Shown here: positions 7,280 through 43,765 of the stretch, one piece after another
How positions within the stretch are numbered: the stretch's first letter is position 1
How the letters are laid out: each line of letters starts with the position of its first letter
Source: Fluviicola sp.
GTDB taxonomy: Bacteria > Bacteroidota > Bacteroidia > Flavobacteriales_D > Crocinitomicaceae
Assembly: GCA_002734065.2 (NCBI GenBank)
Contig: NVXU02000020.1
Coordinates: 1-64,000, forward strand
Reading direction: 5' to 3'
DNA length: 64,000 nt
The notes under the pieces: generated by a model
The model's input: only the letters and a program-made list of their open reading frames with translations
Told to the model about the DNA's origin: nothing
Databases searched by the model: none
Program-made: the position numbers and the translations under genes

Positions 7280-7304
7280 TTTGAAAAGAATCGTTTTGCT
7301 ACAT

Positions 7305-10300
7305 ATGAAACTAACAGTTATCCTACTGTTTTTATCTATTGGATGGTCTTCTGCACAGGGAGACACGTTGCAATTTCCTATAAACAATAATGTAGATCCA
7401 ACGCAATCGGGCAACCAAAGTTTTGACCTTGGAGACCCTTCTTCTCTGAACCAAACCATCGTTTATGACCCAATCACTGGGACTTACGTTTTTAAAGAAA
7501 CCATAGGTAGCAGAGAATTGTATTTTAGAAACCCTTCCATGATGACGCTGGAAGAATACCTCGATTATGAGCGTAAAAAATCAATGCGAGAGAATTGGAA
7601 AGATAAAATTGACCAGCAAACAGCAGCAAGTCAACCTATGGAATTTCCAATTAAGATACCGAGCAAATTATTCGAGAATTTCTTTGGTTCGGACCAAATT
7701 ACCATCCGTCCGCAAGGAAGTGTAGAGTTATCATTTGGTGTAAATTCTTCGCGATACGATAATCCTCTTATTCCAGAAAGGCAGCGAAAAATCACTCGTT
7801 TTGACTTTGACCAGCAAATTAATTTGAATTTAGTAGGGCAAATCGGTACAAAATTAAAATTAGGAGTCAGTTACAACACGCAAGCGGCTTTTGACTTCGA
7901 CAATGTTTCAAAATTAGAATACACTGGAAATGAAGATCAAATAATGCAGAAAATTGGCTTAGGAAACGTCTCGTTTGACATTCCAACCTCATTGATTCAA
8001 GGTTCGCAAACTTTATTTGGTATCACAACACAGATGAAATTTGGGAATACAACCGTTGATTTAATTGCGGCATCTTCCAAAGGGAAACGAAAAGAAATAA
8101 ACATCGAAGGGAAAGCACAGGTTCAGCGGTTTGAGCTAAGCGCAGACAATTACGAAGCGAACCGTCACTATTTCATCAACCTTTATCACCACGATAATTA
8201 TGACAAGGGAATGTCAACCTTACCGATTGTTAATTCGACCATTAATATTACAAGAATGGAGGTTTGGTTGACAAACAGAACCAACAACACACAAAACACT
8301 CGAAATATTATTGCTTTTACCGATTTAGGAGAGGCAACCGCAGCCAATTGTCAAGGAAACCCAGGCAATTTTGCACCCACTGACATTCCTGACAATTCTG
8401 CCAATGGTTTATATGCTTGGGCATCAACACAACCTCTGGTTAGGTCTTTTAACAATGCGGTTTCTGCCTTGAGTTCTCAAGTAGTTGCTCCAGGTCCTTT
8501 TGAGCAAGCAGTAGAATACGAGAAAGTAGAGAATGCAAGAAAATTAACTGAGCAAGAATATTCATATAATGCTCAATTAGGCTTTATTTCCTTGAACTTG
8601 CCTCTAAATACAGATGAAGTTCTTGGTGTAGCTTATGAATATACTTACAGAGGCCAAACTTATCAAGTTGGAGAATTCTCAACAGATGGTGTCTCAGGAC
8701 AGGATGCGTTAATCATGAAATTGTTGAAACCGACAATTACCAATCCCAATAATAAACTGTGGGGGTTAATGATGAAGAATGTTTATTCTATTGGTGCTTA
8801 CCAAGTAGACCAACTAGGGTTTCGATTGGATTTATTGTATAATAATCCAGCAACGTCAGTTAAAGTTCCATTTTTTCCAGCGGATAACTTAGGAGCAACA
8901 ACTTTAGGAGGTCCTATTCTTGGGATAGATGATGAACAGTTGGTTACGCTTCTCGAAATGGATAAAATCAATGTCAATAATCAACCTTTTTCGGATGGTG
9001 TTTTTGATTTTGTGCCGATTCAATTTCAAGGAAATAGAGCAGAGAATGGAGGAACGATAAACACCAGAAATGGTCGTGTCTATTTTTCAACCGTTGAGCC
9101 TTTTGGTCAAACATTGGCAGATAAATTAAGCGCTGCTGGCGTTGCACAAACAGTCATTAATCAAGTAGCTTATACAGAACTGTATGATTCTACAAAAACG
9201 GCAGCGCAACAAATTCCGAGCAAGAATAGGTTCAGTTTGAAAGGAGAATACCAATCCTCAGTTAGTTCTGACATCCCTCTTAATGCATTGAACGTTCCAG
9301 AAGGAGCAGTAACTGTAACGGCAGGTGGAATTAAGATGATTGAAGGAACTGATTACACAGTTGATTATAATTTAGGAAGAGTAAAAATATTAAACACCGG
9401 TGTTTTAGAGTCGAACACACCAATAAAGATTTCCATTGAGAGTAACTCTGTCTTTGGGTTTCAATCAAAATCATTGCTCGGCGCAAGAGTTGCCCATCGA
9501 TTTAATGATAAGTTAAACATTGGTGCAACGTGGATGAGAATGATGGAGCGACCTGTAACTCAGAAAGTAGATATTGGAAGTGAACCATTTAAGAACAATG
9601 TTTTAGGATTGGATGTTGCCTACCGAACAGATGTGCCGTTTTTAACGAAATTGGTTGATTTCTTGCCTGTTATTTCTACCAAAGAAAGGTCAACTTTCTC
9701 TTTTACGGGAGAATTTGCCCATTTAATTCCAGGTCAACCAAGAGCCATTAACAAAGAAGGGACATCTTATGTTGATGATTTTGAAGGCTCTCAAAGCACA
9801 ATTGATTTACGTTCTTTTCAAGCGTGGCATTTAGCATCTATTCCTGAAGGGCAACCTGATTTGTTTCCAGAGGCGACTAATACCGACTTATCAGCAGGAT
9901 TTAAAAGAGCCAAACTTTCTTGGTATGTGATTGACCCATTATTCTATCAAAGTAATAACCTTACTCCGCAACACATCGTAGATAATCCAGCTCAATTGGC
10001 TGACAGTAGAATGCGAACGGTAAATCAAACGGATATTTGGCCAAATTATGACCCTCAGTATGGTTCTATTCTGAACGTATCAATTTTTGATTTGGCTTAT
10101 TACCCATTAGAAAGAGGGATGTACAATTACGACACCACAAACACGGTGAATGCTGACGGAACATTTGTCAACCCAGAAAGTCGGTGGGGTGGAATCATGA
10201 GAGCTTTGACCACGACAGATTTTGAACAAACAAACATCGAATATATCCAGTTTTGGATGTTAGACCCCTTTAACGTTGATGCAGAAGCAGTGAATCCTAA

Positions 10301-13300
10301 TTCAACGCATAACGGAGGAGATTTATACATTAATTTAGGGAATATTTCTGAGGATATCCTGCCAGATTCTCGAAAAAGCTTTGAAAATGGATTGCCACCA
10401 ACAGGATCGTCTATTTCTGGAGATACAGACACGACAATTTGGTCTCGTGTATCGACGCAACAAGTAGTAGTTAATGCGTTTGACAATGACCCAGACGCCA
10501 GGGTTAACCAAGATATCGGCTTAGATGGGTGGGACGATGCCCAAGAGAATGTAGAGTTTGGAAATTACGTAAGCTGGGTCAACGCAAATGCAACCTTAGA
10601 TGCAGTAACAAAAGCAAAAATGTTAGCGGATCCTTCTAACGATAATTATAGGTATTTTAGGGATGACAGGTCCGATGCGGATAAATTAAGCATCCTTGAG
10701 CGTTACAAATTGTACAATGGAATGGAGGGAAACTCTCCGACAACGGAAATGTCCAATTCTTTCAATGCAGACGGTTATCCAACAATTAGTACCAACACAC
10801 CAGATATAGAAGATATTAACCAAGACAATAATCTATCAGAATCTGAAAGTTACTTCCAGTACAAATTGGATATTCGACCGGGAAACATGATCGTTGGAAA
10901 AAATTTCATAACCAGCGTTCAGATATATGATAAAGGAAACGGCGACAAAGAAAGATGGTGTCAATTTAAGATTCCAGTGGCGCAATACGAGCGAAAAATA
11001 GGTGGTATTTCTGATTTTAGATCTATTCGTTTTATGCGTCTGTTCTTAAAAGATTTTGATGAAGAAGTAGTTCTCCGTTTTGCAAGAATGGAGTTTATAC
11101 GTGGAGAATGGAGAAGATACCTTCTTAGTTTGGAAGATGACGTCGAAGGAATTGTTATTGACCCTAACTTAACGACTTTTGATATTGGTGCTGTTAATAT
11201 TCAAGAGAACAACAACAGACAGCCTGTCAATTATGTTGTTCCTCCAGGAATTGTGCAAGAGGTTGATCCTTCGCAAACCTTCCAACGACTACTAAATGAA
11301 CAGTCACTGAGTTTAGAAGTGTGTGATTTACAAGATGGAGATGCACGTGCGGCTTACAGAAATGTACAGTTTGATGTTCGTAATTACAAGAAGTTAAAAA
11401 TGTTTGTTCACGCAGAAGAAGTGGACCCTTCAAAACCTCTAGACGATGATGAACTTTCTCTGTTTATACGATTAGGGACAGACTTTATAGACAATTACTA
11501 CGAGTACGAAATACCATTAAAAACAACTACCTGGGGTTCTAACTTAGACACGGACGTTTGGCCAGAAGAGAATTTTGTTGAAATTGTTTTTGAAGATCTA
11601 CTCAACATTAAAAAGCAAAGAAATCAGTTAATTACAGATGGAAATACTTCCATTTCTTATATCGTAGAGTACGCAAAAGTTGACCCGGCAAATAAAGAGA
11701 GAATCATTCGTGTGAAAGGAAGTCCAAACTTGCAGGACATGAAAACCATTATGATTGGTATTCGAAATCCTCATACAAATTCTCACGACCTTGACACTTG
11801 GTCAGAGGATGGACAGCCAAAATGCGCAGCTGTTTGGGTCAATGAGTTGCGATTGACAGACTTTCTTAGTAAAGGAGGGTCAGCAGCAGTTGCTCAAATG
11901 CAAGTTCAATTTGCTGATTTTGCCAACTTAAATATGTCTGGGAATTACTCTGGAATTAATTGGGGTTCTGTTGAAAGCAGAGTGCAAGAAAGACAGAGAG
12001 ACGAAAGAATTGGTTTTGACTTGAATTCTAACATTCAATTAGGGCAATTCTTCGGTAAAAGAGCAAAAGTTTCTTTGCCATTCTTCTATGGCTATTCTTT
12101 AGGGATTGTTAACCCTGAATATGATCCGTTTAACCCCGACATTAGACTAAAAGATTATGATGATATCGCCGAGAGAAGAAAACGAGCGAAGTTAGGGCAA
12201 GATTTTACGGAGAGAAAGTCGTACAACTTTACCAACGTGCGTAAAGAAATGAAGGCGGGAGCAAAACCAAGAATGTGGAGGATATCCAATTGGGCTGCAA
12301 ACTATTCTTACTCAGAAAGCTTAAGCCGTGACTTTAATACGAATTACGACAGAACAAAAACGTGGAGTGGAGGGTTAACGTATAACTATTCTTTTGCATC
12401 AAAGCCAATAATGCCCTTCAAGAAGTCTAAATTCTTAAAGAAATCGAAATGGTTTGCCTTAATAAGGGATGTAAATTTCTATTTAAAACCAAAAAACATC
12501 TCTTTTTCTTCGGATGCTTTGAGAAGTTATAATGAACGTCAAGTTAGAAATAACATTGTTCCCGACTATGAATTTAGACCCGTTTATGTGAAGCAGTTTG
12601 GATGGAATAGAAAATATAGTTTGGCACATGATATTACAAAAAAACTCAAATTCAAATTTGATGCAACAAACAGGTCAATCTTTGAAGAAGGAGACGGACG
12701 AGTAGATAGAAAATTAGACCCAAATGGATACCGTGCGTTTAAAGACTCTATCGGTTCACAATTAGGGACTTTCGGCAGAACCATGGACTATGCACACAAT
12801 TATAGCTTAAGTTATACGCTTCCGTTGGATAAAATTCCGGCATTGAATTGGATAAGTGCCAACACAAAATATTCTTCTTCGTATAACTGGCAACGCGCAC
12901 CATTGGCGCAACCTGAATTTGGCAACACCATTCAGAACAGCAGAAACATTAACATGACTACGCAGCTGAATTTCACAAATCTGTACAATAAAGTTCCATT
13001 CTTTAAGAAAGTAAATCAAGCTGGGAGAAGAAATACAAGAGGTTCAGCGATAAGTAACAGAAAGCCAGTAGCTGGAGGAGCAAAACCTAAGCCTGTAGTC
13101 AATGAGAAGCCTGAGGACGAAATGACCAAGAAAGAATTGCGTGAAAAACGTCGTAGAGAACGAAAAGAGAAACGGGAAGAAAAAAGAAAAGAGCGCAAGG
13201 AAAAGAAAGTAAATCCAGTTGCCGGCTTCTTGGCACGTATGGTTATGAGTGTGAGAAATGTATCGGGAACTTATACAATTACTGATGGTACATTGTTGCC

Positions 13301-14609
13301 AGGTTATAACCAGGAAACAAGTGTTTTAGGATTTAACCCAAGCTTTAATTCTGGAATGGGAGGCTTTATCTTTGGACAACAGCGCTATGATATTTGGGGC
13401 AGAGAAACAGGTTACAATGTTGCAGAAACAGCCAGAGATAACGGTTGGTTGGTTCAGAATGAGAACTTGAACAAACAATTTGTTACTTCCAGCACTAATA
13501 ACTTAAACTTGAGGGCAACATTGGAGCCAATCAAAGATGTTTCGATAGAATTGTCTTTGAACAGAACGTTTAGCAACAATTCGAGTGAATTTTACAGATG
13601 GAATTCTTTAACGTCACAGTTCGAAGGTCAAAGTAGGGTAGAATTATCAACCGTTACTTATTCTAACGTTTCTATTAGTTCTGCCTTTACCAAACTGGGG
13701 AAAGAGTATCAATCTTCTGTTTTTGAGCAGTTATTGGAGAATAGAAAAGACGTATCTCAATTACTTGGTGCAGCAAACTCGAACGCGACACAAACCGCTT
13801 CGGGTTATTACAACGGTTATAGCGGTTCACAACAAGAGGTTGTTTTGGGTGCTTTCTTAACTTCTTACACCAACAGAAATGTGAGTGAGAAGAATGTTAA
13901 CCCTATAAGAAACATGCCGTTGCCAAATTGGTCGATTAATTACAACGGCTTGAAGAAGTTTAAATTCATGAAGAAAGTGCTTCGTAATTTTGTGTTGCGA
14001 CATGCTTACAGTTCTACAGTTGCCGTTTCTGGAATGCAAACAAACCTAAATGCCGCATTTGATGGCAACGGGAATGCAACAGCAAGAGATTTAAACAATA
14101 ATTTTATTGCTGGAATGCAGATTCAAAATGTTGTAGTTACGGAACGTTTTTCTCCACTGATTGGATTTGATGCCACATGGATTGTAAAAGGACAAGGATT
14201 GATAACGAAGTTTGAATACAAGAAAGACAAGAGTTCAACGCTTTCATTAAATAACAATCAAGTAACAGAGGTGTTGGGAACTGAATTTGTCATCGGTTTA
14301 GGGTATAAATTCAAGAAGATTAAAATTTCTCCGAAAATCGACCCAAGTCCTGTTAATATTCGTTTTGACTTCTCTTTTAGAGATAATTTAACCGTGATTA
14401 GAAAGGTTGTTGAACAAACAGATCAAGCAACAGCAGGACAGAAAGTAATTTCAATTAAAGCGTCTGCGGATTACAACTTATCGAAATTCTTAACGATACA
14501 ATTGTACTACGACCAGACCTTGAATACACCAAAAATTGCCACTTCGTACAACACAGGAAACATGAGTGCAGGTTTACGTTTGAGGTTTAACCTTGCGGGA
14601 GTTCAATGA
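7305..14609 (+). CDS. sprA: Cell surface protein SprA, outer-membrane translocon of the type IX secretion system
   Basis: About 2,434 residues, the huge size diagnostic of SprA, which forms the 36-strand outer-membrane pore of the T9SS. A signal peptide (MKLTVILLFLSIGWSSAQ) is followed by beta-rich sequence throughout; conserved-looking segments include FLPVISTKERSTFSFTGEFAHLIPG, YVDDFEGSQSTIDLR and GLDGWDDAQENVEFG, and the end is SAGLRLRFNLAGVQ. A TTG at 7281 would add eight residues; I prefer the ATG at 7305 because it gives a standard signal peptide. A strongly basic stretch (about residues 1940-1970, KKELREKRRRERKEKREEKR) interrupts the barrel. It follows ruvA closely and overlaps the next gene by 4 bases. 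Confidence 0.95.
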   Translation: MKLTVILLFLSIGWSSAQGDTLQFPINNNVDPTQSGNQSFDLGDPSSLNQTIVYDPITGTYVFKETIGSRELYFRNPSMMTLEEYLDYERKKSMRENWKDKIDQQTAASQPMEFPIKIPSKLFENFFGSDQITIRPQGSVELSFGVNSSRYDNPLIPERQRKITRFDFDQQINLNLVGQIGTKLKLGVSYNTQAAFDFDNVSKLEYTGNEDQIMQKIGLGNVSFDIPTSLIQGSQTLFGITTQMKFGNTTVDLIAASSKGKRKEINIEGKAQVQRFELSADNYEANRHYFINLYHHDNYDKGMSTLPIVNSTINITRMEVWLTNRTNNTQNTRNIIAFTDLGEATAANCQGNPGNFAPTDIPDNSANGLYAWASTQPLVRSFNNAVSALSSQVVAPGPFEQAVEYEKVENARKLTEQEYSYNAQLGFISLNLPLNTDEVLGVAYEYTYRGQTYQVGEFSTDGVSGQDALIMKLLKPTITNPNNKLWGLMMKNVYSIGAYQVDQLGFRLDLLYNNPATSVKVPFFPADNLGATTLGGPILGIDDEQLVTLLEMDKINVNNQPFSDGVFDFVPIQFQGNRAENGGTINTRNGRVYFSTVEPFGQTLADKLSAAGVAQTVINQVAYTELYDSTKTAAQQIPSKNRFSLKGEYQSSVSSDIPLNALNVPEGAVTVTAGGIKMIEGTDYTVDYNLGRVKILNTGVLESNTPIKISIESNSVFGFQSKSLLGARVAHRFNDKLNIGATWMRMMERPVTQKVDIGSEPFKNNVLGLDVAYRTDVPFLTKLVDFLPVISTKERSTFSFTGEFAHLIPGQPRAINKEGTSYVDDFEGSQSTIDLRSFQAWHLASIPEGQPDLFPEATNTDLSAGFKRAKLSWYVIDPLFYQSNNLTPQHIVDNPAQLADSRMRTVNQTDIWPNYDPQYGSILNVSIFDLAYYPLERGMYNYDTTNTVNADGTFVNPESRWGGIMRALTTTDFEQTNIEYIQFWMLDPFNVDAEAVNPNSTHNGGDLYINLGNISEDILPDSRKSFENGLPPTGSSISGDTDTTIWSRVSTQQVVVNAFDNDPDARVNQDIGLDGWDDAQENVEFGNYVSWVNANATLDAVTKAKMLADPSNDNYRYFRDDRSDADKLSILERYKLYNGMEGNSPTTEMSNSFNADGYPTISTNTPDIEDINQDNNLSESESYFQYKLDIRPGNMIVGKNFITSVQIYDKGNGDKERWCQFKIPVAQYERKIGGISDFRSIRFMRLFLKDFDEEVVLRFARMEFIRGEWRRYLLSLEDDVEGIVIDPNLTTFDIGAVNIQENNNRQPVNYVVPPGIVQEVDPSQTFQRLLNEQSLSLEVCDLQDGDARAAYRNVQFDVRNYKKLKMFVHAEEVDPSKPLDDDELSLFIRLGTDFIDNYYEYEIPLKTTTWGSNLDTDVWPEENFVEIVFEDLLNIKKQRNQLITDGNTSISYIVEYAKVDPANKERIIRVKGSPNLQDMKTIMIGIRNPHTNSHDLDTWSEDGQPKCAAVWVNELRLTDFLSKGGSAAVAQMQVQFADFANLNMSGNYSGINWGSVESRVQERQRDERIGFDLNSNIQLGQFFGKRAKVSLPFFYGYSLGIVNPEYDPFNPDIRLKDYDDIAERRKRAKLGQDFTERKSYNFTNVRKEMKAGAKPRMWRISNWAANYSYSESLSRDFNTNYDRTKTWSGGLTYNYSFASKPIMPFKKSKFLKKSKWFALIRDVNFYLKPKNISFSSDALRSYNERQVRNNIVPDYEFRPVYVKQFGWNRKYSLAHDITKKLKFKFDATNRSIFEEGDGRVDRKLDPNGYRAFKDSIGSQLGTFGRTMDYAHNYSLSYTLPLDKIPALNWISANTKYSSSYNWQRAPLAQPEFGNTIQNSRNINMTTQLNFTNLYNKVPFFKKVNQAGRRNTRGSAISNRKPVAGGAKPKPVVNEKPEDEMTKKELREKRRRERKEKREEKRKERKEKKVNPVAGFLARMVMSVRNVSGTYTITDGTLLPGYNQETSVLGFNPSFNSGMGGFIFGQQRYDIWGRETGYNVAETARDNGWLVQNENLNKQFVTSSTNNLNLRATLEPIKDVSIELSLNRTFSNNSSEFYRWNSLTSQFEGQSRVELSTVTYSNVSISSAFTKLGKEYQSSVFEQLLENRKDVSQLLGAANSNATQTASGYYNGYSGSQQEVVLGAFLTSYTNRNVSEKNVNPIRNMPLPNWSINYNGLKKFKFMKKVLRNFVLRHAYSSTVAVSGMQTNLNAAFDGNGNATARDLNNNFIAGMQIQNVVVTERFSPLIGFDATWIVKGQGLITKFEYKKDKSSTLSLNNNQVTEVLGTEFVIGLGYKFKKIKISPKIDPSPVNIRFDFSFRDNLTVIRKVVEQTDQATAGQKVISIKASADYNLSKFLTIQLYYDQTLNTPKIATSYNTGNMSAGLRLRFNLAGVQ

Positions 14610-34296: not shown

Positions 34297-34431
34297 GTAC
34301 TTTTTGAGTAGTTGCTGTCAGGTCAGAATTTAAATCCAAGGAGAGTTAAGTAACCTATGTTTCATAAGAGAAAGAATATTTTGCATATTATTGTATCATA
34401 ATAACTGATTTAACCCTTGAAAGACTGTTCG

Positions 34432-35019
34432 ATGACTGAGCAAAAGTTTTATTTAAAGAATATGGTTTCAAAAAGCTGTATTAAACTTATTGAGCTCTAT
34501 TTCCAATCAATTGAGGGGGTTATCATCAAAAGTGTCTTTTTGGGAAATGTTGTTCTATCCTATGATAAAAGCATTGTTAGTATAGAAAAACTGACAAATT
34601 CATTCAAAGAAATTGGGTTTGAAGTGATTGAAGATGACGATGCTATTTTAACAGAAAAAATAAAAGTGGCATCCATAGAATTGATTATTTTTTCAAGCAA
34701 CAATAACTCTATTATTCGTAATTCCGACTACATCAGTGATCGAGTCCAAGAGCCTTACGATAAGATAAGCAAAGTGTTTTCAAGAATGACAGGAACTACG
34801 CTAGAAAAATTCATCATTGCTTTAAAAATTGAAAAAGTAAAAGATTTAGTTTTAGAGGATAAATTAACGTTGAGTGAGATTTCTTACCAACTCGACTACA
34901 GCAGTGTTCAGTACCTGAGCAAACAATTTAAACAAACCACAGGTTATACTTTTTCAGAGTTTAGAAACTTAGAAAACCCTCCAAGAATTCACGTTGACGA
35001 AATTCTGCGCGCACAGTAA
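34432..35019 (+). CDS. AraC-type regulator with HMA-like N-terminal domain
   Basis: 195 residues from the ATG at 34432 (a TTG at 34417 would add five). Residues 1-70 have the beta-alpha-beta-beta-alpha-beta pattern of heavy-metal-associated domains (FYLKNMVSKSCIKLIELYF, GVVIKS-type strand, LTNSFKEIGFEVI), but the CxxC metal site is reduced to a single cysteine in SKSC. The C-terminal half is an AraC HTH (KVKDLVLEDKLTLSEISYQL, then SVQYLSKQFKQTTGYTFSEF). It is divergent from mgtE and immediately precedes the pqqD/ATP-grasp cluster, where a phased repeat pair is its likely target. Confidence 0.82.
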   Translation: MTEQKFYLKNMVSKSCIKLIELYFQSIEGVIIKSVFLGNVVLSYDKSIVSIEKLTNSFKEIGFEVIEDDDAILTEKIKVASIELIIFSSNNNSIIRNSDYISDRVQEPYDKISKVFSRMTGTTLEKFIIALKIEKVKDLVLEDKLTLSEISYQLDYSSVQYLSKQFKQTTGYTFSEFRNLENPPRIHVDEILRAQ

Positions 35020-35056
35020 AAAACGTTGATTTTATTGATGTAAAGGCGATTTAACC

Positions 35057-35086
35057 CTAAATAGTACACATCGTTTTCTAAATAGT
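35057..35086 (+). promoter_or_regulatory. Direct repeat pair with AraC-operator geometry
   Basis: CTAAATAGT at 35057-35065 and again at 35078-35086, 21 bp apart (two helical turns), followed 26 bases later by a consensus -7 box. AraC-family proteins commonly bind such tandem half-sites next to the promoter. The AraC-type gene ends 38 bases upstream. Confidence 0.6.
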
Positions 35087-35112
35087 GTAAAAGTATTTGT
35101 CTTCTTGTGTAT

Positions 35113-35120
35113 TATCTTTG
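35113..35120 (+). promoter_or_regulatory. Bacteroidota -7 box for the pqqD/ATP-grasp cluster
   Basis: TATCTTTG, a full match to TAnnTTTG, 63 bases before the ATG at 35183. A TTTG at 35096-35099 is 13 bases upstream, closer than the usual -33 position, which fits a promoter that depends on an activator. Confidence 0.6.
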
Positions 35121-35182
35121 GTGCGTTAGCCGTCGATAAGAATAAAGAAACTGCCAATCTATAAACAAGTAAAAATTGAATT

Positions 35183-35422
35183 ATGAAAATAAGAAAAAAT
35201 GTAGCTGTAAGTGACTCGGGATTTTTGTTTAATCCTTTAACAGGAGATTCTTTTTCTGTTAACCCAATTGGACAAACAATCATTAGTTCTTTTAAAGAGA
35301 ACAAACCTGAGTCAGAAATTCTTGAGAACATATTAGAGGAGTATCGTGTTGATAAAAATACAGCAGAAAAAGACCTCAACGATTTTAAAAGAATGTTGGA
35401 AAATTACAAACTAATTGACTAG
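35183..35422 (+). CDS. PqqD-like peptide/protein chaperone
   Basis: 79 residues. The fold of PqqD/RRE proteins is visible: strands around VAVSDSGFLFNPLTGDSFSVNPIGQTII with the characteristic N-x-x-G/A-x-x-I/L helix start, then helices SEILENILEEYRVDKNTAEKDLNDFKRML. PqqD-type domains hold a substrate peptide for modifying enzymes. No obvious precursor peptide is seen next to it, so it may instead carry another substrate. It lies 3 bases before the ATP-grasp gene. Confidence 0.85.
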   Translation: MKIRKNVAVSDSGFLFNPLTGDSFSVNPIGQTIISSFKENKPESEILENILEEYRVDKNTAEKDLNDFKRMLENYKLID

Positions 35423-35425
35423 AAG

Positions 35426-36475
35426 ATGAGTAAGCCAAAATATACAATTGCCGTTACAGGCCTAAATGCTATAGATAGTCCCGGACCGGGGTTAGCTGTT
35501 ATTCGAGCCTTAAAAGATTCAAAAAGCTTTGATGTTAGAATAATAGGTCTATCCTATGAGGCTTTAGAACCCGGAATCTACATGCATGATTATGTTGATA
35601 AAACGTATCAGGTTCCGTACCCGAGTGCAGGACAGGAGGTTCTAGTTGAGAGATATAAGTACATTAATGCAATTGAAAACATTGATTTTCTATTTCCTAA
35701 TTTTGATGCAGAATTATTCAATTACATTGCATTGAAAGAAAGGTTGTTGAATGACTTAGGGATAAAAATGTCACTGCCAACTCAAGAACAGTTTGAAGCA
35801 AGACATAAGGTTAATTTATATGAATATGGAAAGACTCATGAAATTAAAGTTCCTTTTTCTCAAATGATTTTTAGTACGGCCGAGATACCTGGGGTTGCTG
35901 CCAATATTGGTTATCCATTGGTCATAAAAGGGAAATTTTATGATGCAAAAATAGCTCATACCGCTGAGCAAGCTCAGTCGCACTTTAACAAAATTAGCGC
36001 AGAATGGGGTTTGCCTGTTATCGTGCAAGAGTTTGTTCACGGCTCTGAGGTAAATGTTTGTGGAATAGGCGACGGAGAGGGAGTTACTCTTGGTGCAGTT
36101 CCAATGCGAAAACTATACATTACTGATAAAGGAAAAGCATGGGCGGGAATCACTCTGGATGATGAAAAGCTAATGGAAATAACTACTGATCTTGTCAAAA
36201 ACACAATGTGGAATGGACCATTTGAATTGGAGTTCATGAAGACGGATAAAGATGAGTATTATTTAATCGAGATAAACCCGCGTTTCCCAGCATGGTGCTA
36301 CTTAACGGTTGGTGCCGGACAAAACCAAGTTGAAGCACTTGTAAATCATGAAATGGGGATGAAGGTAGAACCTTTTGAAAATTATGAAGTAGGAAAAATG
36401 TTTATCCGTTATTCACACGACATGATTGTTGACATAAAAGAGTTTGAACAGATATCTACCGTAGGAGAATTATAA
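35426..36475 (+). CDS. ATP-grasp ligase (CPSase large-subunit-like)
   Basis: 349 residues. An N-terminal Rossmann-like domain (KYTIAVTGLNAIDSPGPGLAVIRAL) precedes the ATP-grasp core: YPLVIKGKFYDAKIA (ATP lysine), VIVQEFVHGSEVNVCG, and FELEFMKTDKDEYYLIEINPRFPAW, where E and N bind Mg2+. It should activate a carboxylate as acyl phosphate and join it to an amine; the layout is close to PylC and carbamoyl-phosphate-synthase-like amide ligases. The partner genes (PqqD-like, decarboxylase) suggest an amino acid or peptide substrate. Confidence 0.88.
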   Translation: MSKPKYTIAVTGLNAIDSPGPGLAVIRALKDSKSFDVRIIGLSYEALEPGIYMHDYVDKTYQVPYPSAGQEVLVERYKYINAIENIDFLFPNFDAELFNYIALKERLLNDLGIKMSLPTQEQFEARHKVNLYEYGKTHEIKVPFSQMIFSTAEIPGVAANIGYPLVIKGKFYDAKIAHTAEQAQSHFNKISAEWGLPVIVQEFVHGSEVNVCGIGDGEGVTLGAVPMRKLYITDKGKAWAGITLDDEKLMEITTDLVKNTMWNGPFELEFMKTDKDEYYLIEINPRFPAWCYLTVGAGQNQVEALVNHEMGMKVEPFENYEVGKMFIRYSHDMIVDIKEFEQISTVGEL

Positions 36476-36504
36476 ATAAGAAACAAATTGTAAAAAAATA
36501 TATT

Positions 36505-37863
36505 ATGGAAAAGAAAACATATGAAAGACCAATTATTAAACCACTAAACTCAGGTTTGATGAATAAATTCGGAACAAGAACAGAATATACACCTAAGACA
36601 CACATTGATGGTGTAAAGGTGAAAGATTTACTAGCTGAATTCGGTTCCCCGTTGTTCGTTATGTCTGAAGATAAAATTAGACAGAATATACAAAGTGCAC
36701 AGCGTATTTTTGAGACGAGGTATCCCAAGGTTCAATTTGCATGGTCTTATAAAACAAATTATTTGAATGCAGTTTGTAATGTTTTTCATCAAGAAGGGTC
36801 TTGGGGAGAAGTTGTATCGATGTTTGAATATAACAAAGCCTTGAAAAATGGAGTTCCAGCAGACAAGATTTTATTTAACGGTCCGGATAAAACAGACGAT
36901 GATTTAAAAACAGCTGTAAAAAATGATTCACCGATTCACATAGATCATTTGGATGAACTATATCGTTTGATAGAAATTTCAGATGAAATGCACATAAAAC
37001 CAAGAGTCGCTATTCGTGTCAATATGGATACGGGCATATACCCAATGTGGGATCGTTTTGGATTCAACTATGAAAACGGTGAAGCATGGGATGCTATCAA
37101 TAAGATAATGGCAACGGATAAGTTAAACTTGATTGGTTTACACTGTCACATAGGAACATTTATGCTAACGCCAAGTGCCTATGGAGTTGCCGCTAGCAAG
37201 CTTTCTGCTTTAGCTCTAAACATAAAAAAGAGATACGATAAAGTAATCACTTACATTGACATGGGTGGTGGATTTGCATCTAAGAATACTTTGAAAGGGT
37301 CTTATCAGTTGGGGACTGATGCTGTTCCAGATATAGAAGAGTACGCAGAACAAATTACAAGTTCTATTCTAAATGCAGGTTTCGAAACAGATGAATTGCC
37401 TTACCTCTACTTAGAAACAGGGAGAGCGCTTGTTGATGACGCAGGTTTTTTACTGGGATCTGTGATTTCAAATAAGCGTCTTTCTGATGGTAGAAGATCA
37501 ACTATTTTAGACTTTGGTGTCAACATTCTTTTTACGGCTTTCTGGTATGATCATAAAATATCACCAGCACAAGAGTTTAGTCAATATACAGAGGATACAG
37601 TCCTTTATGGACCATTGTGTATGAATATTGATGTTGTGCGTGAAAATGTTTCAATGCCCCCTTTGAATGCTGGAGACAATGTTGTTGTCCATTATGTTGG
37701 AGCTTATAACATTACCCAATCTATGCAATTTATCTCTCTGCGACCTGCTGTCGTGATGATTGACACAAAAGGGAAGCCTCACAAAATTAAATCGAGTGAA
37801 ACTCTTGAAGATGTTGAAAAAAATGAGCTATTACCGACTCATTTGAATAAATTTGAACTTTAA
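36505..37863 (+). CDS. Fold-type III PLP-dependent decarboxylase (diaminopimelate decarboxylase-like)
   Basis: 452 residues. The PLP lysine is in FAWSYKTNYL (K83), the stacking histidine in LHCHIGTF, the phosphate loop is YIDMGGGFAS, and YLETGRALVDDAGFL carries the next PLP contact. The cross-subunit catalytic cysteine is kept in YGPLCMNIDVV. Unlike LysA, the residues around that cysteine (CMNIDVV) and the final loop (VGAYNITQSMQF) differ, so the substrate is probably not meso-diaminopimelate itself. It follows the ATP-grasp gene by 29 bp. Confidence 0.87.
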   Translation: MEKKTYERPIIKPLNSGLMNKFGTRTEYTPKTHIDGVKVKDLLAEFGSPLFVMSEDKIRQNIQSAQRIFETRYPKVQFAWSYKTNYLNAVCNVFHQEGSWGEVVSMFEYNKALKNGVPADKILFNGPDKTDDDLKTAVKNDSPIHIDHLDELYRLIEISDEMHIKPRVAIRVNMDTGIYPMWDRFGFNYENGEAWDAINKIMATDKLNLIGLHCHIGTFMLTPSAYGVAASKLSALALNIKKRYDKVITYIDMGGGFASKNTLKGSYQLGTDAVPDIEEYAEQITSSILNAGFETDELPYLYLETGRALVDDAGFLLGSVISNKRLSDGRRSTILDFGVNILFTAFWYDHKISPAQEFSQYTEDTVLYGPLCMNIDVVRENVSMPPLNAGDNVVVHYVGAYNITQSMQFISLRPAVVMIDTKGKPHKIKSSETLEDVEKNELLPTHLNKFEL

Positions 37864-37881
37864 AATCAAACAAAGGTAAAA

Positions 37882-40065
37882 TTGGGAGCTAAATATTATA
37901 TAAAACTAATTTGGGAAGGGCTTATTAATAGCTATTCCCAAGTTTTTTTCTCCAACAGTAAGGTCCTTGCTTATTTCTTGCTGTTCATTAGTTTTTTTGA
38001 TATTGGTGCAGGACTTAGCGGAATAATTGCGATTGCAATTGGCCAAGTTACTGCATTGCTCTTCAATTTTAATCATGAACTAATAAGAAATGGCACCTAT
38101 ACCTACAATGCTCTTATGGTTGGTATGGCAATAGGTATATTCTATGACTTTAACCTTTCTTTTTTCATCTTACTTGTTGTTGCATCTATTCTCACTTTCT
38201 TTATCACGATTTGGTTCTTAACGAATTTAGGGAAAAGAGGCTTGCCATTTTTAAGCATTCCCTTCTTACTCACGGTATGGATTATTATATTGGGAGCAGA
38301 TAATTTTACTGCTTTAGAGCTTCACCAAAAAGAAACACTGTCTCTTGCGAGGTATTATCCAGAATTATTTTCAGGTACGACGGACTTTATTGCACAATTA
38401 CCCTTTTCAAATGGGATCTACCTTTACTTAAGGTCTTTAGGGGCAATCTTTTTTCAATTCAATGACCTGGTAGGAATATTTATTGCAATCGGGATTTTAA
38501 TTTATTCTCGAATTGGGTTCGTACTGTCAATTTATGGCTTTCTAATAGGTTATTTATTCTACTACTACCTAGAAGGAGACTTCTCTCAGCTCATATACAG
38601 TTATATAGGATTTAATTTTATCTTAACGGCGATAGCATTGGGAGGGTTTTTCATCATTCCGTCAAGAAAATCATTCTTGATTTTATTACTTACGATTCCA
38701 ATTATTGCACTATTAATTAGTGCTTTACATACCCTATTTTCTCAATTTGGTCTTCCCTTGTATTCGCTGCCATTCAATATTGTTGTGCTTTTATTCCTTT
38801 CTGCAATGGCTTTGAGGCATAAATCGTCAGGATTACAATTAGTGACCTTACAACAATTTTCTCCAGAAAAAAACCACTATAAATACTACAATTCGATAGA
38901 CAGATTTAGTTCAGACACCTATTTTCATATCTCCTTACCAATAACAGGAGACTGGCGAATATCGCAAGGATATGATGGGAAATTGACCCACAAAGGCGAG
39001 TGGGCTCAAGCTCTTGATTTTGATGTTGTTAATAGTAAGGGTGAGACCTTTAAATCACCAGGACACCAACTAAAGGACTATTACTGTTATGATTTGCCAG
39101 TAAACGCACCTGCAAATGGCTGGATAGCGGAAATTCTCGATGGAGTTGAGGACAACGAAATTGGAGATGTTGACCTAGAGCAAAATTGGGGGAATACGAT
39201 TATAATTAAGCACGGAGAATACCTTTTCAGTAAGTTATCTCACTTAAAAAAAGACACAATTCAGTTCAAAGTAGGGGATTATGTTACTAAAGACGATATT
39301 ATTGCCTATTGTGGAAGTTCCGGTCGTTCGCCTGAGCCACATTTGCATTTTCAGTTGCAATCAACACCATTTATTGGTTCAGCAACTTTACAATATCCAA
39401 TGAGTTATTATCTAACGAAAGAAAATGACGGTTATGATTTCCATTCTTTTGACATACCAAAAGAAAATGATATTGTTAGCAATGTAAAAGTGACTAAGCT
39501 GCTAAAAGATGCTCTGCACTTAATACCTGGACAGAAGTTGAAATTTGAAGTAACGGAAGGAAATCGACCATCCTATGAAACAAATTGGGAAGTATTCACA
39601 ACAGCCGCGAATAGTACTTATATATATTGCCACAAGACAAAATCAACGGCTTATTTTGTGAATAATGGGACTTTATTTTATTTCACAGACTTCTATGGAA
39701 GTAAAAGTTCATTTTTACATCGCTTTTACATTTCTTCTCACAAAATACTACTGGGATACTACAAGAATGTTGTTGTTAAAGATAAACTGTTAATTGATAC
39801 TTTCTTTCCAAAATTCTTGAAGTATTTGCATGATTTTACAGCGCCATTTTTTCATTACTTTACGGCAGATTATGAGATGAAATTTGGAGAGGTAGAGAAT
39901 GAACACCTGCCATCAAAGATTATCTGCAAGACAGTTGCTAAAGGTGTTTACTTTGGTAAATCAACTGGTCCAGTTACGTCAAGTATTTTATTTGAAAATA
40001 ACCGTATCGAAGAAATTGAATTGAATTATAATAACGAAACAACTAGAGCGAAGTGCATCGATTAA
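37882..40065 (+). CDS. Urea transporter domain fused to M23 metallopeptidase
   Basis: 727 residues. Residues 1 to about 310 are a urea-transporter domain with about ten helices (VFFSNSKVLAYFLLF, NALMVGMAIGIFYDF as the urea-pore signature, LPFNIVVLLFLSAMALRH). The rest is soluble: GDWRISQGYDGKLTHKGEW, then ALDFDVV, IIIKHGEYLFSKLSHLKK and PEPHLHFQL are the zinc ligands and fold marks of an M23 (LytM) peptidase, so it appears active. The start is TTG; the next ATG is some 70 codons in, too late for the first helix. The last 13 bases overlap the next gene. Confidence 0.87.
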   Translation: MGAKYYIKLIWEGLINSYSQVFFSNSKVLAYFLLFISFFDIGAGLSGIIAIAIGQVTALLFNFNHELIRNGTYTYNALMVGMAIGIFYDFNLSFFILLVVASILTFFITIWFLTNLGKRGLPFLSIPFLLTVWIIILGADNFTALELHQKETLSLARYYPELFSGTTDFIAQLPFSNGIYLYLRSLGAIFFQFNDLVGIFIAIGILIYSRIGFVLSIYGFLIGYLFYYYLEGDFSQLIYSYIGFNFILTAIALGGFFIIPSRKSFLILLLTIPIIALLISALHTLFSQFGLPLYSLPFNIVVLLFLSAMALRHKSSGLQLVTLQQFSPEKNHYKYYNSIDRFSSDTYFHISLPITGDWRISQGYDGKLTHKGEWAQALDFDVVNSKGETFKSPGHQLKDYYCYDLPVNAPANGWIAEILDGVEDNEIGDVDLEQNWGNTIIIKHGEYLFSKLSHLKKDTIQFKVGDYVTKDDIIAYCGSSGRSPEPHLHFQLQSTPFIGSATLQYPMSYYLTKENDGYDFHSFDIPKENDIVSNVKVTKLLKDALHLIPGQKLKFEVTEGNRPSYETNWEVFTTAANSTYIYCHKTKSTAYFVNNGTLFYFTDFYGSKSSFLHRFYISSHKILLGYYKNVVVKDKLLIDTFFPKFLKYLHDFTAPFFHYFTADYEMKFGEVENEHLPSKIICKTVAKGVYFGKSTGPVTSSILFENNRIEEIELNYNNETTRAKCID

Positions 40066-41420
40066 AGAACATCTTGGCGCTTGTAATTTCCATTGGTTTT
40101 TCTACGATGGTCTATTCTCAAATGGATTATATAGAGGTAGAAAAAACAAGCTACGAATTGTATTTATCTCAAGATTGGGAAGAATTAGTTGCTTTTGGCA
40201 AACAGGCAGAAGAAGCTGGCATTACATATTTTTATTTCAATCTACGAATGGGAATCGCCTTTTTTAAGCTAAAAGAGTATAAGAAAAGTAAAGACTATCT
40301 TACAAAAGCGAATCAAGAGAACTCTTTCAATAAAGTAGTGATAGAATATCTTTTTTGGGATAATTATTACCTTTTAAAAGAAAAAGAAAGCGCCTTATGG
40401 TATGCGAAGTTGGATGATACAATTCAACAACGCATAAATTACATTCCTCCGAAGACACTAGAAAGTATTTTTATTGAAGGAGGACAAAAAATCTCGACAG
40501 ACAGAAACGTTGCGGACAAAATAGACTATTTTAATTTTGGAATTACGTTAAACCTGGGAGCGAGATTGAAGATAGACCAAGGCTACACGTTTTTACAGCA
40601 AAACCTGAATTGGGGGAATTTAAAACAACATCAATATTACATCAATCCAAAAATCAGATTTAAAAAATCAATGGAGTTTAATTTAGGGTTTCATTTTGCT
40701 AACTTTAAATCATCAATTGATTATTATATTGAAGGAGTTTATCAATCATCTACTCCACAAGGAGGTTTCCCATTTGGTAATGTTATTGACTCTACTGTTT
40801 CAAGTAAATATCAGATTGAAGGCACCTATGGTCAGAATGATTTTTTATTTCAACCCAGGTTTACTAAAACGTGGAAAGCAATTAAGGTTTCTCCTTATTT
40901 GAGTTATGTCAGCTCTATTCAAGGTGCGGATTATTTTGAAAGATACACGGACACAACAACGATTACAGAAAGGACAGGATCTACTATAATAAACCAATCT
41001 GTGGAGTATAGTGATAGTATTATCCTTCCAGAAAATCAGACCATTAGCCAATTTGGAGTAGGCGCAAACCTTTTTTACATCTTTAAATTTATTACCGTTG
41101 GAGGTCAATTAGAGTACATTAATCGAGATAACAATTCTTTTTTCTTTGTTTCGCCTTATTTGAAGCTCGACTTGGGTAAAAAAACTCACCTTTCTGCGTA
41201 CTATTTTAGTAAGAAAAACTATACCGTTGGATTATTTGAAGCCTCCCAATTAATTAATTCGAGTGATTCTGTGGATAAGCTAAGTTTTACCGCACAGTAT
41301 GATGCTTTTAAAAAACTCAGCCTGTTTTTAACCTATCAATACGAAACCATTGAAAGTATTATGGGTACCGGAGACTATCGACTTAACTCCGTTTATTTAA
41401 GTCTAAAATTTAAATTTTAA
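40053..41420 (+). CDS. TPR plus outer-membrane beta-barrel protein
   Basis: 455 residues from a GTG that overlaps the preceding gene; signal peptide NILALVISIGFSTMVYSQ. Residues of about 25-120 are TPR helices (YFYFNLRMGIAFFKLKEYKKSKDYLTKA). The rest alternates in barrel style with aromatic girdles (NFGITLNLGARLKIDQGYTF, YYINPKIRFKKSMEFNLGFHF) and ends in a hydrophobic strand closing on phenylalanine (YLSLKFKF), the outer-membrane insertion signal. Similar in layout to YaiO-type barrels. It probably provides the outer-membrane partner of this cluster. Confidence 0.75.
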   Translation: MHRLKNILALVISIGFSTMVYSQMDYIEVEKTSYELYLSQDWEELVAFGKQAEEAGITYFYFNLRMGIAFFKLKEYKKSKDYLTKANQENSFNKVVIEYLFWDNYYLLKEKESALWYAKLDDTIQQRINYIPPKTLESIFIEGGQKISTDRNVADKIDYFNFGITLNLGARLKIDQGYTFLQQNLNWGNLKQHQYYINPKIRFKKSMEFNLGFHFANFKSSIDYYIEGVYQSSTPQGGFPFGNVIDSTVSSKYQIEGTYGQNDFLFQPRFTKTWKAIKVSPYLSYVSSIQGADYFERYTDTTTITERTGSTIINQSVEYSDSIILPENQTISQFGVGANLFYIFKFITVGGQLEYINRDNNSFFFVSPYLKLDLGKKTHLSAYYFSKKNYTVGLFEASQLINSSDSVDKLSFTAQYDAFKKLSLFLTYQYETIESIMGTGDYRLNSVYLSLKFKF

Positions 41421-41425
41421 ATATC

Positions 41426-42022
41426 ATGAAAAATCTATTTCTTTTAATTATTACTTGCATTACTTTAACTGTAAATGCACAGTCCAATCTTGACGCTTTT
41501 AGTAAAAGTTACACCTTTGAAGCAAACAAAGAATATGCAAAAGCTATTCAAGTTCTTGAACCTCTTGTTTCAGAAACTTCTTACAGTGTTCAATTAAGAT
41601 TAGGGTGGTTGAATTATCTAAGGGCAGATTACCTTCAATCAAAATCTCATTACCAGAAAGCAATCAACATAAAGAACAATAGTATAGAAGCAAAACTTGG
41701 GTTAATTTATCCATTACAGGCACTTTCAAGTTGGGACGAGGTGATTAAAGTTTACCACAAAATCCTGACAATTGATCCGAATCATTCTTCCACACACTAT
41801 CAGTTAGCATACATTTATTTCGTTCGTAAGAAATATTCTCAAGCAGAATCACATCTTAAGTCGGTGTTGAAATTATACCCTTTCGATTACAGTTCTAATG
41901 CATTGTTAGGCAGTGTGTATGTCAAACTGGGTAAAATTAAAGAGGCAAAAGAGTATTATACCTTAGCGTTAGAATATGACCCAAGATCTACGGAAATAAA
42001 AAAAATCATAGAAGGTTTGTAG
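41426..42022 (+). CDS. Secreted TPR protein
   Basis: 198 residues with signal peptide MKNLFLLIITCITLTVNAQ. Four or five TPR units follow (YTFEANKEYAKAIQVLEPLV, RLGWLNYLRADYLQSKSHYQKAI, IYPLQALSSWDEVIKVYHKIL, QLAYIYFVRKKYSQAESHLKSVL, LLGSVYVKLGKIKEAKEYYTLAL). It is the last gene of the seven-gene cluster, 5 bases after the barrel gene. Probably a periplasmic adaptor. Confidence 0.78.
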   Translation: MKNLFLLIITCITLTVNAQSNLDAFSKSYTFEANKEYAKAIQVLEPLVSETSYSVQLRLGWLNYLRADYLQSKSHYQKAINIKNNSIEAKLGLIYPLQALSSWDEVIKVYHKILTIDPNHSSTHYQLAYIYFVRKKYSQAESHLKSVLKLYPFDYSSNALLGSVYVKLGKIKEAKEYYTLALEYDPRSTEIKKIIEGL

Positions 42023-42068
42023 GGTGCAGGGAACTTGAAAAGTAATGTTCCAAAAAAGAACGTTGATT

Positions 42069-42204
42069 TACGCTGATAGGTGAAGTTGACAGCACTATGA
42101 TTTCCTTAGTAGTCCAATGTTCTAAAATAGAACGCTGATAACACTGATTTTTATGATCTACGCTGATAGGTGAAGTTGACAGTACTATGATTTTCCTTAG
42201 TAGT
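42069..42204. repeat. 45-bp direct repeat pair, 90 bp apart
   Basis: 42069-42113 and 42159-42204 share ACGCTGATAGGTGAAGTTGA and then CAG(C/T)ACTATGATT(T)TCCTTAGTAGT, differing by one substitution and one inserted T. They lie in the convergent gap between the TPR gene and the O-antigen ligase gene. Shorter AACGCTGAT and AACGTTGATTTACGCTGAT words occur between. No gene is visible. Confidence 0.85.
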
Positions 42205-42235: not shown

Positions 42236-43765
42236 CTACTTCTCGTATCTATAACTAAACAAGCCATAAAACAGGGCGAAAAATGTCACGCCTGTTTGCG
42301 TTTCAATCGTGTCTTCAATTAAGAAAGAAACAAGAATAATAACGATGAATGAAGTGGCCAGTATTTCATTGCTCCGAATGTTTGCGAACGCGTACAATCC
42401 AATGGTGTAAAGGAAATACAGGAGGCCTGTGATTCCGAAGGTTATCAGAATAGTAAGAAAATAATTGTGTGCTCTTCTGCGTTTATCTTCTCTTAAGAGC
42501 GAATTATTTTCTTCGTATTTAGCATTAAACGCATCTTGAACGTCTCCTGTTCCAACTCCAATAAACAGGTTGTTGGACGCAATTTGAAAACCCGTTTTCC
42601 AATATTCTAAACGCTCTAACAAGGAATGGCCGTTTGGGTTTTTTACATTGGTTAGCTGGTATTTTATTCCGTAAAGTCGCCCTAAAAGTCCTTTGTGGTT
42701 GGCGCTTGTAATTCCATTTTCAATTTCTGAGATGTCTTTTTTAGACAGCAAAGCTAATCCTTCGGCATCTTTGCGAAGACCTTTGGAAGACATATAACGA
42801 ATAATCGTCCCTGAAATTCTCTGTCCTTTTACATCAGTGCTGTCGAATGCAATAGAAGAATATTTAGACCAATCTCGTTCTAATTCTTCTACACAAATAT
42901 AGATGTAAATCGGCTCATTTGTTTCGGCAGAAATTAGGTCAGAAAGGTGTCCGTAATTGTTTCCTTCGGCTGTTTTAACATCGTAATCAATGTCTTTTTC
43001 GAAGTTGAATTCTGAAGGAGTGAAAAGCCAAAAAGCGAGAACAATGAATGAAGCAATTCCTGCAACTAAAGGTGCTAAAGCAACTATTTTTGACTTTTTC
43101 CAGAGAATACAAATCCAATAAGTAGCAAACACAGCCATCATTGTTATCAAGCCAGAAATGACTTGACTGTAGAGGGTGTAAAAGATTAACCAAAGAAGGG
43201 CTATCAATAGGACCGCTTTTATTTTCACGGAGACTCTTTGCCAGAAATAGAATAAAACAGCAATGCCCATAGAGACAATGATGGCGAAACGAACGTGCGA
43301 AGTAAAGTAAGAAAGCCCACGGATGTCATCATAAACCACATTGCCAATCCAATGCTGATAAAGCGAAAAATTAAGGAGAGTCACTAAAATAACAGCGAAG
43401 GTGAAGACCTTTAGAATGATCTCAAGATGCTTTCTTTCTGCCAAAGGTTTTGCCGCAAGAATTGTTGGGATAACGAGTAAAGGCAACTTGGCGTTTAAGT
43501 CGTGAAAGGCGTATTGCATATTGGACGACCACAAAAGTGCGACTACGTGTAGGAGAAAAAACCCTAGAATGAACAGGTACAGTTTATTTGCTTTTAAATT
43601 CTTCCAATAGGTCTTAAAATGAGCTTCTAAAAGAAGGTTGAGTACCAAAAACATCATGGAAATAGACATGGCAACCTTACTCAACGGAAGACCAACAGCA
43701 ACCCCGCTGAGACCAAGTAGGTGCAAAAACAAGTGTGTATTTTTTCCGAAAATACGGTTCAACAT
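42236..43765 (-). CDS. O-antigen ligase family protein
   Basis: 509 residues with about ten membrane helices (LLGLSGVAVGLPLSKVAMSISMMFLVLNLLL, LYLFILGFFLLHVVALLW, LLIALLWLIFYTLYSQVISGLITMMAVFATYW). The large periplasmic loop ends in LFIGVGTGDVQDAFNAKY and NYFLTILITFGITGLLYFLYTIGL, the region of the conserved GxGxG..H..F motif of WaaL-type ligases (RAHNYFL keeps the catalytic-site histidine). It should transfer a polymer from undecaprenyl diphosphate to lipid A-core or a related acceptor. Confidence 0.83.
   Translation of the reverse strand: MLNRIFGKNTHLFLHLLGLSGVAVGLPLSKVAMSISMMFLVLNLLLEAHFKTYWKNLKANKLYLFILGFFLLHVVALLWSSNMQYAFHDLNAKLPLLVIPTILAAKPLAERKHLEIILKVFTFAVILVTLLNFSLYQHWIGNVVYDDIRGLSYFTSHVRFAIIVSMGIAVLFYFWQRVSVKIKAVLLIALLWLIFYTLYSQVISGLITMMAVFATYWICILWKKSKIVALAPLVAGIASFIVLAFWLFTPSEFNFEKDIDYDVKTAEGNNYGHLSDLISAETNEPIYIYICVEELERDWSKYSSIAFDSTDVKGQRISGTIIRYMSSKGLRKDAEGLALLSKKDISEIENGITSANHKGLLGRLYGIKYQLTNVKNPNGHSLLERLEYWKTGFQIASNNLFIGVGTGDVQDAFNAKYEENNSLLREDKRRRAHNYFLTILITFGITGLLYFLYTIGLYAFANIRSNEILATSFIVIILVSFLIEDTIETQTGVTFFALFYGLFSYRYEK

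Follow-up and report, generated by a model that had tools for sequence, protein, structure and literature searches.

In the genome of Fluviicola sp. (Bacteroidota; GenBank assembly GCA_002734065.2), positions 1 to 64,000 of contig NVXU02000020.1, hereafter the window, carry a block of seven genes that encode a regulator, a PqqD-like protein, an ATP-grasp ligase, a pyridoxal-phosphate-dependent (PLP) decarboxylase, a urea transporter fused to an M23 peptidase (UT-M23) and two secreted TPR proteins (Table 1). We propose, with a probability of about one half, that these genes encode a pathway of guided ligation, decarboxylation, M23 hydrolysis and channel exit that works with no separate precursor peptide. 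The PqqD-like protein, a discrete recognition element (RRE) of the type that guides the making of ribosomally synthesized and post-translationally modified peptides (RiPPs), would bind a leader-like N-terminus (YERPxI) of the decarboxylase and in this way bring decarboxylase and ligase together. The ligase would join an amino acid to a partner through an amide bond, the decarboxylase would remove the alpha-carboxylate from the conjugated amino acid, and a cytoplasmic M23 domain would hydrolyse an amide bond in this conjugate. From there, the small product would leave through the urea-type channel fused to M23 and through a probable outer-membrane barrel with its TPR partners. We infer both this order of reactions and the direction, export rather than import.

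The seven genes form one unit

We searched an even draw of 395 genomes from the phylum of the window for the ATP-grasp ligase (E up to 1e-30) and the decarboxylase (E up to 1e-60). Orthologues of the ligase, of the decarboxylase and of the full UT-M23 (both parts) were each found in 34/395 genomes, and the 34 genomes are identical, a co-occurrence that the original prediction had proposed to look for; 8 further genomes match UT-M23 through the M23 part alone. PqqD, ligase, decarboxylase and UT-M23 follow one another in this order on one strand in all 38 loci compared (33 from the other members of the 34-genome set and 5 from nearer relatives), including locus L097, where PqqD is 1.9 kb away. 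In loci from named records, taken as the best 80 of at least 567 relatives, the order PqqD, ligase, decarboxylase is present in 77/80. Two of the exceptions (L102 and L138) result from contig ends that cut the loci, and the third is L140 (see below). In most of these records the title refers to Bacteroidetes or to an order within it; the few that refer to other groups are probably bins with a wrong label. The gap between PqqD and the ligase is at most 60 bp in 114/116 loci. A scatter of homologues through unrelated contexts, which the original prediction had named as a refutation, was looked for and was not seen; the seven genes are one real unit.

A close orthologue is present in 5/59 relatives (66-93% identity), and that of G040, a genome of another family (81%), is as close as that of the genus-mate G009 (80%). 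The genes that flank the block in the window share a contig in 25/33 other genomes of the genus, and their matches are 25-1262 bp apart in 25/25, a spacing too small for the block, which is therefore not at this site in those 25. In G007 and G029, the flanks are close together and the block is on other contigs. Judged by eye and not by a family search, the flanking genes resemble mgtE and an O-antigen-ligase-like gene. Similarity to the genus-mate locus L211, which has an empty site, ends at 34312 and starts again at 42252; in L211, the two points are separated by 34 bp. The best explanation is that this Bacteroidota pathway is inherited patchily and moves horizontally as a block. The right end of the inserted block contains a 40-nt direct repeat (42064-42103 and 42154-42193, 95% alike), whose 23-base core, with up to 2 mismatches, was not found elsewhere in the genome.

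A conserved decarboxylase tail and the RRE pocket

The decarboxylase starts with a tail of ~24 residues, Y6-E7-R8-P9-x-I11 ... N20-K21-F22-G23, whose consensus is K-x-x-[Y/F]-E-[R/K]-P-x-[I/L/V]-x5-G-x2-N-K-F-G. All 116 decarboxylase N-termini (115 distinct proteins) show the pattern [Y/F]xxPx[I/L/V] together with a Lys 15 positions beyond the Tyr/Phe; 113/116 have the strict form [YF]E[RK]Px[ILV], 102/116 an Asn before the Lys and 113/116 K-[F/Y]-G, and E7, R8, P9, K21 and G23 are invariant in the 61 rows of nearer relatives. This count leaves out L138 and L140, which have no decarboxylase, and L116, in which the decarboxylase is read as two overlapping open reading frames (ORFs), the first of which carries the tail; L032, taken as the same genome as L100, was left out of the tree and kept in the count. 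In the AlphaFold2 (AF2) model of the monomer, the predicted local distance difference test (pLDDT) score is below 50 at 22 of the first 24 residues, compared with a mean of 84.8 for the whole decarboxylase, and alignments to solved family members start at residue 21 or later. A tail that is conserved yet predicted to be disordered suggests a recognition peptide. According to passages of a study on such recognition, most discrete lasso RREs recognise [Y/W]xxPx[L/V/I/A/F/Y] (PMC13381572).

The pocket residues for such a peptide are kept in the PqqD-like protein. Its N27 (35261-35263), D64 (35372-35374) and F68 (35384-35386) align ungapped with N33, D70 and F74 of LppB and are present in 114/114, 105/114 and 108/114 PqqD homologues, respectively. 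As passages of the same study describe, Asp70 of LppB forms a bond with the leader Tyr, Asn33 holds the kink at the Pro in place, and Phe74 packs against this Pro and is part of the lining of the second pocket; complex formation with a YxxP leader is weakened by D70A and nearly abolished by N33A (PMC13381572). The nearest solved chains are the lasso/LPP RREs TbiB1, TfuB1 and PbaB1, with a weaker match to LppB (E 0.016), and the protein is the sole PF05402 match of the genome. D64 is found in 0/6 homologues where the tail has Phe, against 105/108 where it has Tyr (Fisher 3e-8). Motif, disorder and RRE pocket together suggest that the tail is a recognition peptide for the RRE, and we infer from these sequences that the PqqD-like protein binds it. 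Where the original prediction saw no precursor peptide, a leader-like sequence would thus be present as the N-terminus of an enzyme. We also surveyed 2006 same-strand ORFs of 20-130 aa, located within 1.5 kb of 117 clusters and free of overlap with cluster genes. Near these clusters the survey, which did not extend to distant genes, found no conserved ORF for a separate precursor; the largest sequence-related group has 5 ORFs, and the loose form of the motif occurs in 118/2006, with no related group above 5.

Several observations weigh against this reading. The loose motif is unspecific: it is found within 30 residues in 20/324 unrelated ORFs (0/324 for the strict motif), within 45 residues in 9/14 other decarboxylases (14 of 24 controls, the other 10 having no readable ORF) and in folded parts of the block's own enzymes, as WGLPVIV in 39/39 ligases and FGSPLFV in 37/39 decarboxylases, so that position and disorder weigh more than the pattern itself. 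The conservation of N20-K21-F22-G23 exceeds what docking needs. The six Phe tails fall in one part of the tree, where they represent two changes each and no independent support, and two loci of that part (L157 and L163) combine Tyr with Asn64; a covariation confined in this way fits binding between RRE and tail and is no proof of it. In L140, PqqD and ligase (8733-10047) are present without a decarboxylase in the following 3.3 kb to the contig end. Finally, one would hardly expect an amine or an amino acid to leave through a urea channel.

The conservation that extends beyond the RRE motif, to G23, and the Lys21 held at a fixed spacing in all 116 N-termini, including 61/61 nearer rows, would also fit a tail that carries the substrate. 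The ligase, guided by PqqD, would acylate Lys21 of the decarboxylase with a dicarboxylic amino acid via its side-chain carboxylate, the decarboxylase would process the residue on its own tail, and M23, which is fused to the urea-type channel, would cut the isopeptide-type bond and renew the tail. M23 DD-endopeptidases cut amides on side-chain amines. BtrK offers a precedent for decarboxylation on a carrier (in passages of PMC7857480), and pearlins grow on a carrier peptide and are released by a membrane-bound metalloprotease (in passages of PMC9303977). However, the PEARL ligase of the pearlins is absent from the block, and we regard this reading, with Lys21 as the tethering site, as rather unlikely.

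It is also conceivable, although unlikely, that the tail has no connection with PqqD and forms a structural arm in the decarboxylase dimer, perhaps as a lid on the neighbour's active site, and that PqqD serves a distant precursor. AF2 was run on the monomer, in which an arm crossing the dimer would appear disordered, and distant precursors were outside the scope of the small-ORF survey. Nevertheless, the tail fits the RRE consensus, PqqD keeps the matching pocket and adjoins the ligase in nearly all loci, and the genome has no second PqqD match.

The decarboxylase likely acts on a conjugated amino acid

The reading in which the RRE docks on the tail involves a conjugated substrate, and the active site of the decarboxylase points in the same direction. 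In the profile search, the N-citrylornithine decarboxylase 7kh2 comes first with 298.8 bits (next, 228.9), and in the Foldseek search of the model N-citrylornithine decarboxylase takes ranks 1-4, at 30% identity. The pocket is FigC/FslC-like, with K83, H215, GGG254-256, E304, R307 and C372-M373. In FigC, as reported in passages of PMC7857480, the Asp beside the catalytic Cys has given way to Met355, and the places of the Asp/Arg that bind free basic substrates or diaminopimelate are taken by Thr327, Thr330 and Tyr331. The equivalent residues in the block's enzyme and its nearer relatives are Met373 (61/61), Thr344 (57/61) and Trp347 with Tyr348 (61/61). Residue 344 is the position of the diaminopimelate-binding Arg of 1twi and is Thr in 57/61 and Asn in 4/61. 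Two family models match below their cut-offs, NF041039 (FslC/FigC) at 237.8 bits (cut-off 500) and TIGR01048 (diaminopimelate decarboxylase) at 218.5 bits (cut-off 297.9). The FigC clade, again in passages of PMC7857480, comprises BtrK, which acts on carrier-bound Glu, and MccE, which acts on a microcin C intermediate, and it also holds diaminopimelate and D-ornithine decarboxylases. A FigC-like pocket, in a clade with enzymes for conjugated substrates, makes a conjugated amino acid the likely substrate. We rejected free diaminopimelate, ornithine, lysine and arginine because the residues that would bind them are replaced; the original prediction had proposed these four for testing, and their free forms are unlikely substrates.

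The AF2 model of the ligase (pLDDT 89.2) resembles a carbamoyl-phosphate-synthase (CPSase)-like protein, biotin carboxylases and the amino-acid ligases PylC and RizA; 2pn1 aligns with a Z of 28.1 and a root-mean-square deviation of 2.7 over 288 residues, PylC (4ffr) has a Z of 25.5, and RizA is first by Foldseek E-value. With regard to a graspetide family, the best NCBIfam matches of the ligase are CPSase-like (PRK12767), all below cut-off, and the small-ORF survey gave no precursor near the clusters. The modelled fold alone does not specify the substrate.

A urea channel fused to a predicted cytoplasmic peptidase

Residues 16-313 of the fusion align over the urea transporter dvUT (3k3f), and its ten segments were read from averaged hydropathy; TIGR03441 (Yut) matches at 125.7 bits, below its cut-off of 274.6. 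In an alignment of 37 homologues (L074 and L097, with <600 residues, were left out of 39) and with loop bounds set by hand, the density of Lys and Arg is 0.152 in the loops taken as inside and 0.040 in those taken as outside, and is higher inside in 37/37. By the positive-inside rule, this distribution places the C-terminal M23 on the cytoplasmic side, a prediction that rests mainly on charge counts; in passages of a review, the termini of UT-A are intracellular. The M23 residues H370, D379, H454, H487 and H489 are conserved in 92% or more of the 37 homologues. A peptidoglycan-type peptidase at the envelope had been expected here: the M23 assignment stands, with its zinc ligands kept, whereas the charge distribution of the UT loops would put it in the cytoplasm. 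In L074 (genome G064, 9944-12198), UT and M23 are encoded by two separate ORFs with a slight overlap, the result of either a frameshift or a natural split.

The envelope is the usual place of action of M23 and TPR-barrel proteins, and in most loci UT-M23 is followed by genes for secreted TPR or barrel-type proteins. UT-M23, barrel and TPR protein might then remodel peptidoglycan or import urea, while the enzymes make a polyamine-like wall amine. The predicted cytoplasmic position of M23, a decarboxylase pocket unlike that of a polyamine enzyme and the patchy, block-wise inheritance all argue against such a cassette, which we consider quite improbable. The broader claim that the locus makes or modifies an amino-acid-derived compound is plausible, its envelope part serving either export or import. 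Anti-phage defence was rejected, as the four proteins tested gave no PADLOC match at E 0.001.

Layout of the block and accessory genes

As originally predicted, the seven genes share one strand, here the plus strand, with gaps of 3, 29, 18, -13 and 5 bp from pqqD on; the regulator and pqqD are 163 bp apart. The family calls made for regulator, PqqD, ATP-grasp, decarboxylase, UT, M23 and TPR agree with Pfam matches over cut-off, whereas the barrel has weak matches below cut-off (Table 1).

Table 1 Genes and features of the block, with positions in the window
Feature	Position	Strand	Basis
Regulator, HMA-like N-terminal domain and AraC-type helix-turn-helix (HTH)	34432 (or TTG 34417)-35019	+	Pfam HTH_18, 1e-12
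PqqD-like discrete RRE	35183-35422	+	PF05402, 39.5 bits (cut-off 23.4)
ATP-grasp ligase, carbamoyl-phosphate-synthase-like / PylC-RizA-like fold	35426-36475	+	Pfam ATP-grasp_3, ATPgrasp_Ter
Alanine-racemase-fold (fold-III) PLP decarboxylase, 452 residues	36505-37863	+	Pfam Orn_Arg_deC_N, Orn_DAP_Arg_deC
Leader-like N-terminal tail of the decarboxylase	36505-36576	+	Motif conservation, low AF2 pLDDT
UT-M23 fusion	37882-40065	+	Pfam UT and Peptidase_M23
Urea-transporter domain, ten hydrophobic segments (our reading)	37924-38805	+	PF03253, 195.3 bits (cut-off 25)
M23 zinc peptidase domain, predicted cytoplasmic	38989-39360	+	PF01551, 49.3 bits (cut-off 28.7)
Secreted TPR protein with probable outer-membrane beta-barrel	40053-41420	+	Weak BBP2_2, YfaZ and EpsL matches, below cut-off
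Secreted TPR protein	41426-42022	+	Pfam TPR_2, 1.1e-18
Extra block relative to the empty site of genus-mate L211	34313-42251		Flank similarity stops and resumes

A regulator homologue is found upstream in 36/80 of the named-record loci. In the window, residues 4-65 of the regulator have weak NCBIfam HMA/CopZ matches, far below cut-off, and this HMA-like domain, joined to the AraC HTH, has its CxxC metal motif degenerated to SxxC. The last TPR protein has a homologue in 35/38 loci. In other lineages, a different secreted protein of ~270-300 residues is encoded near UT-M23/TPR, in 16 loci with no Pfam match for the one member tested and in 3 loci with a weak OmpG-porin match. An IF-2B/ribose-1,5-bisphosphate-isomerase-like gene lies between decarboxylase and UT-M23 in three loci (L144:11432-12346, L147:11514-12458 and L165:7538-8365), and ORFs that resemble it by eye are present in L151 and L176; the presence of this gene may point to chemistry that partly involves a sugar phosphate. 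Several outer lineages encode, just upstream of pqqD, a protein of ~280 residues with a type IX secretion tail (L085:6111-6947 and relatives), the one member tested having an FG-GAP match below cut-off. Elsewhere in the window, 7281-14609 is one open reading frame of 2442 residues.

Relation to known systems and significance

The original prediction could match the set to no characterised pathway. The gene set is not described in the titles and abstracts of the literature that we searched, a scope outside which most subscription journals fall, and none of the passages on RRE discovery, Bacteroidales RiPP mining and graspetides that we consulted treats it. The pathway is apparently uncharacterised. 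It shares with the RRE-guided YxxP RiPPs (lasso, pyrroloquinoline quinone (PQQ) and LPP) a discrete PqqD-like RRE with an Asn/Asp/Phe pocket and a YxxPx[hydrophobic] target predicted to be disordered. However, the target here would lie at the N-terminus of an enzyme of 452 residues, the survey of nearby ORFs gave no conserved separate precursor, and the block has no leader protease, lasso cyclase or PqqE. We rejected a PQQ or lasso cluster, as Pfam and NCBIfam find no leader protease, lasso cyclase or PqqA/B/C/E among the seven genes.

The FigC/FslC clade (with SbnH, AcsE, BtrK and MccE) contains the closest solved relative of the decarboxylase, with the same Met beside the catalytic Cys and the same absence of the Asp/Arg for free basic substrates or diaminopimelate. 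The block's enzyme differs from FigC/FslC in its 30% identity, its sub-cut-off NCBIfam FslC match, its Trp347 at the position of FigC Thr330 and its leader-like tail, and the block has no citrate-type (NIS) synthetase. BtrJ is the ATP-grasp ligase of butirosin. The butirosin enzymes BtrJ-BtrI-BtrK likewise combine an ATP-grasp ligase and a fold-III decarboxylase on a tethered amino acid (passages of PMC7857480 for BtrK and BtrI), but the carrier protein BtrI has no counterpart in the block, which has PqqD and the tail. The pearlins (3-thiaglutamate and 3-thiahomoleucine) are alike in logic, with an amide-tethered amino acid, an RRE protein, a membrane-bound metalloprotease and a transporter, as passages of PMC9303977 describe them. 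They differ in that the block has an ATP-grasp enzyme and no PEARL, and its carrier, if any, would be at an enzyme N-terminus; membership among the pearlins was rejected because Pfam and NCBIfam detect no PEARL (LanB-like) ligase among the seven genes. Borosins, as an abstract on them describes, offer a precedent for an enzyme that carries its own substrate peptide, but there a methyltransferase bears the peptide at its C-terminus, whereas the block combines an RRE with a decarboxylase that has an N-terminal tail.

From a biological perspective, an apparently uncharacterised pathway is spread through a whole phylum, and a hypothesis can now be offered for most of its genes. Binding of the RRE to the tail of an enzyme would widen RRE-guided chemistry to targets other than precursor peptides, and pathways of this kind would escape genome mining that relies on short precursors. 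The fusion of a cytoplasmic M23 to a urea channel would put both families to an unusual use. Should the decarboxylase indeed carry the substrate on its own tail, the block would be a carrier-based assembly line without a carrier protein or a precursor peptide.

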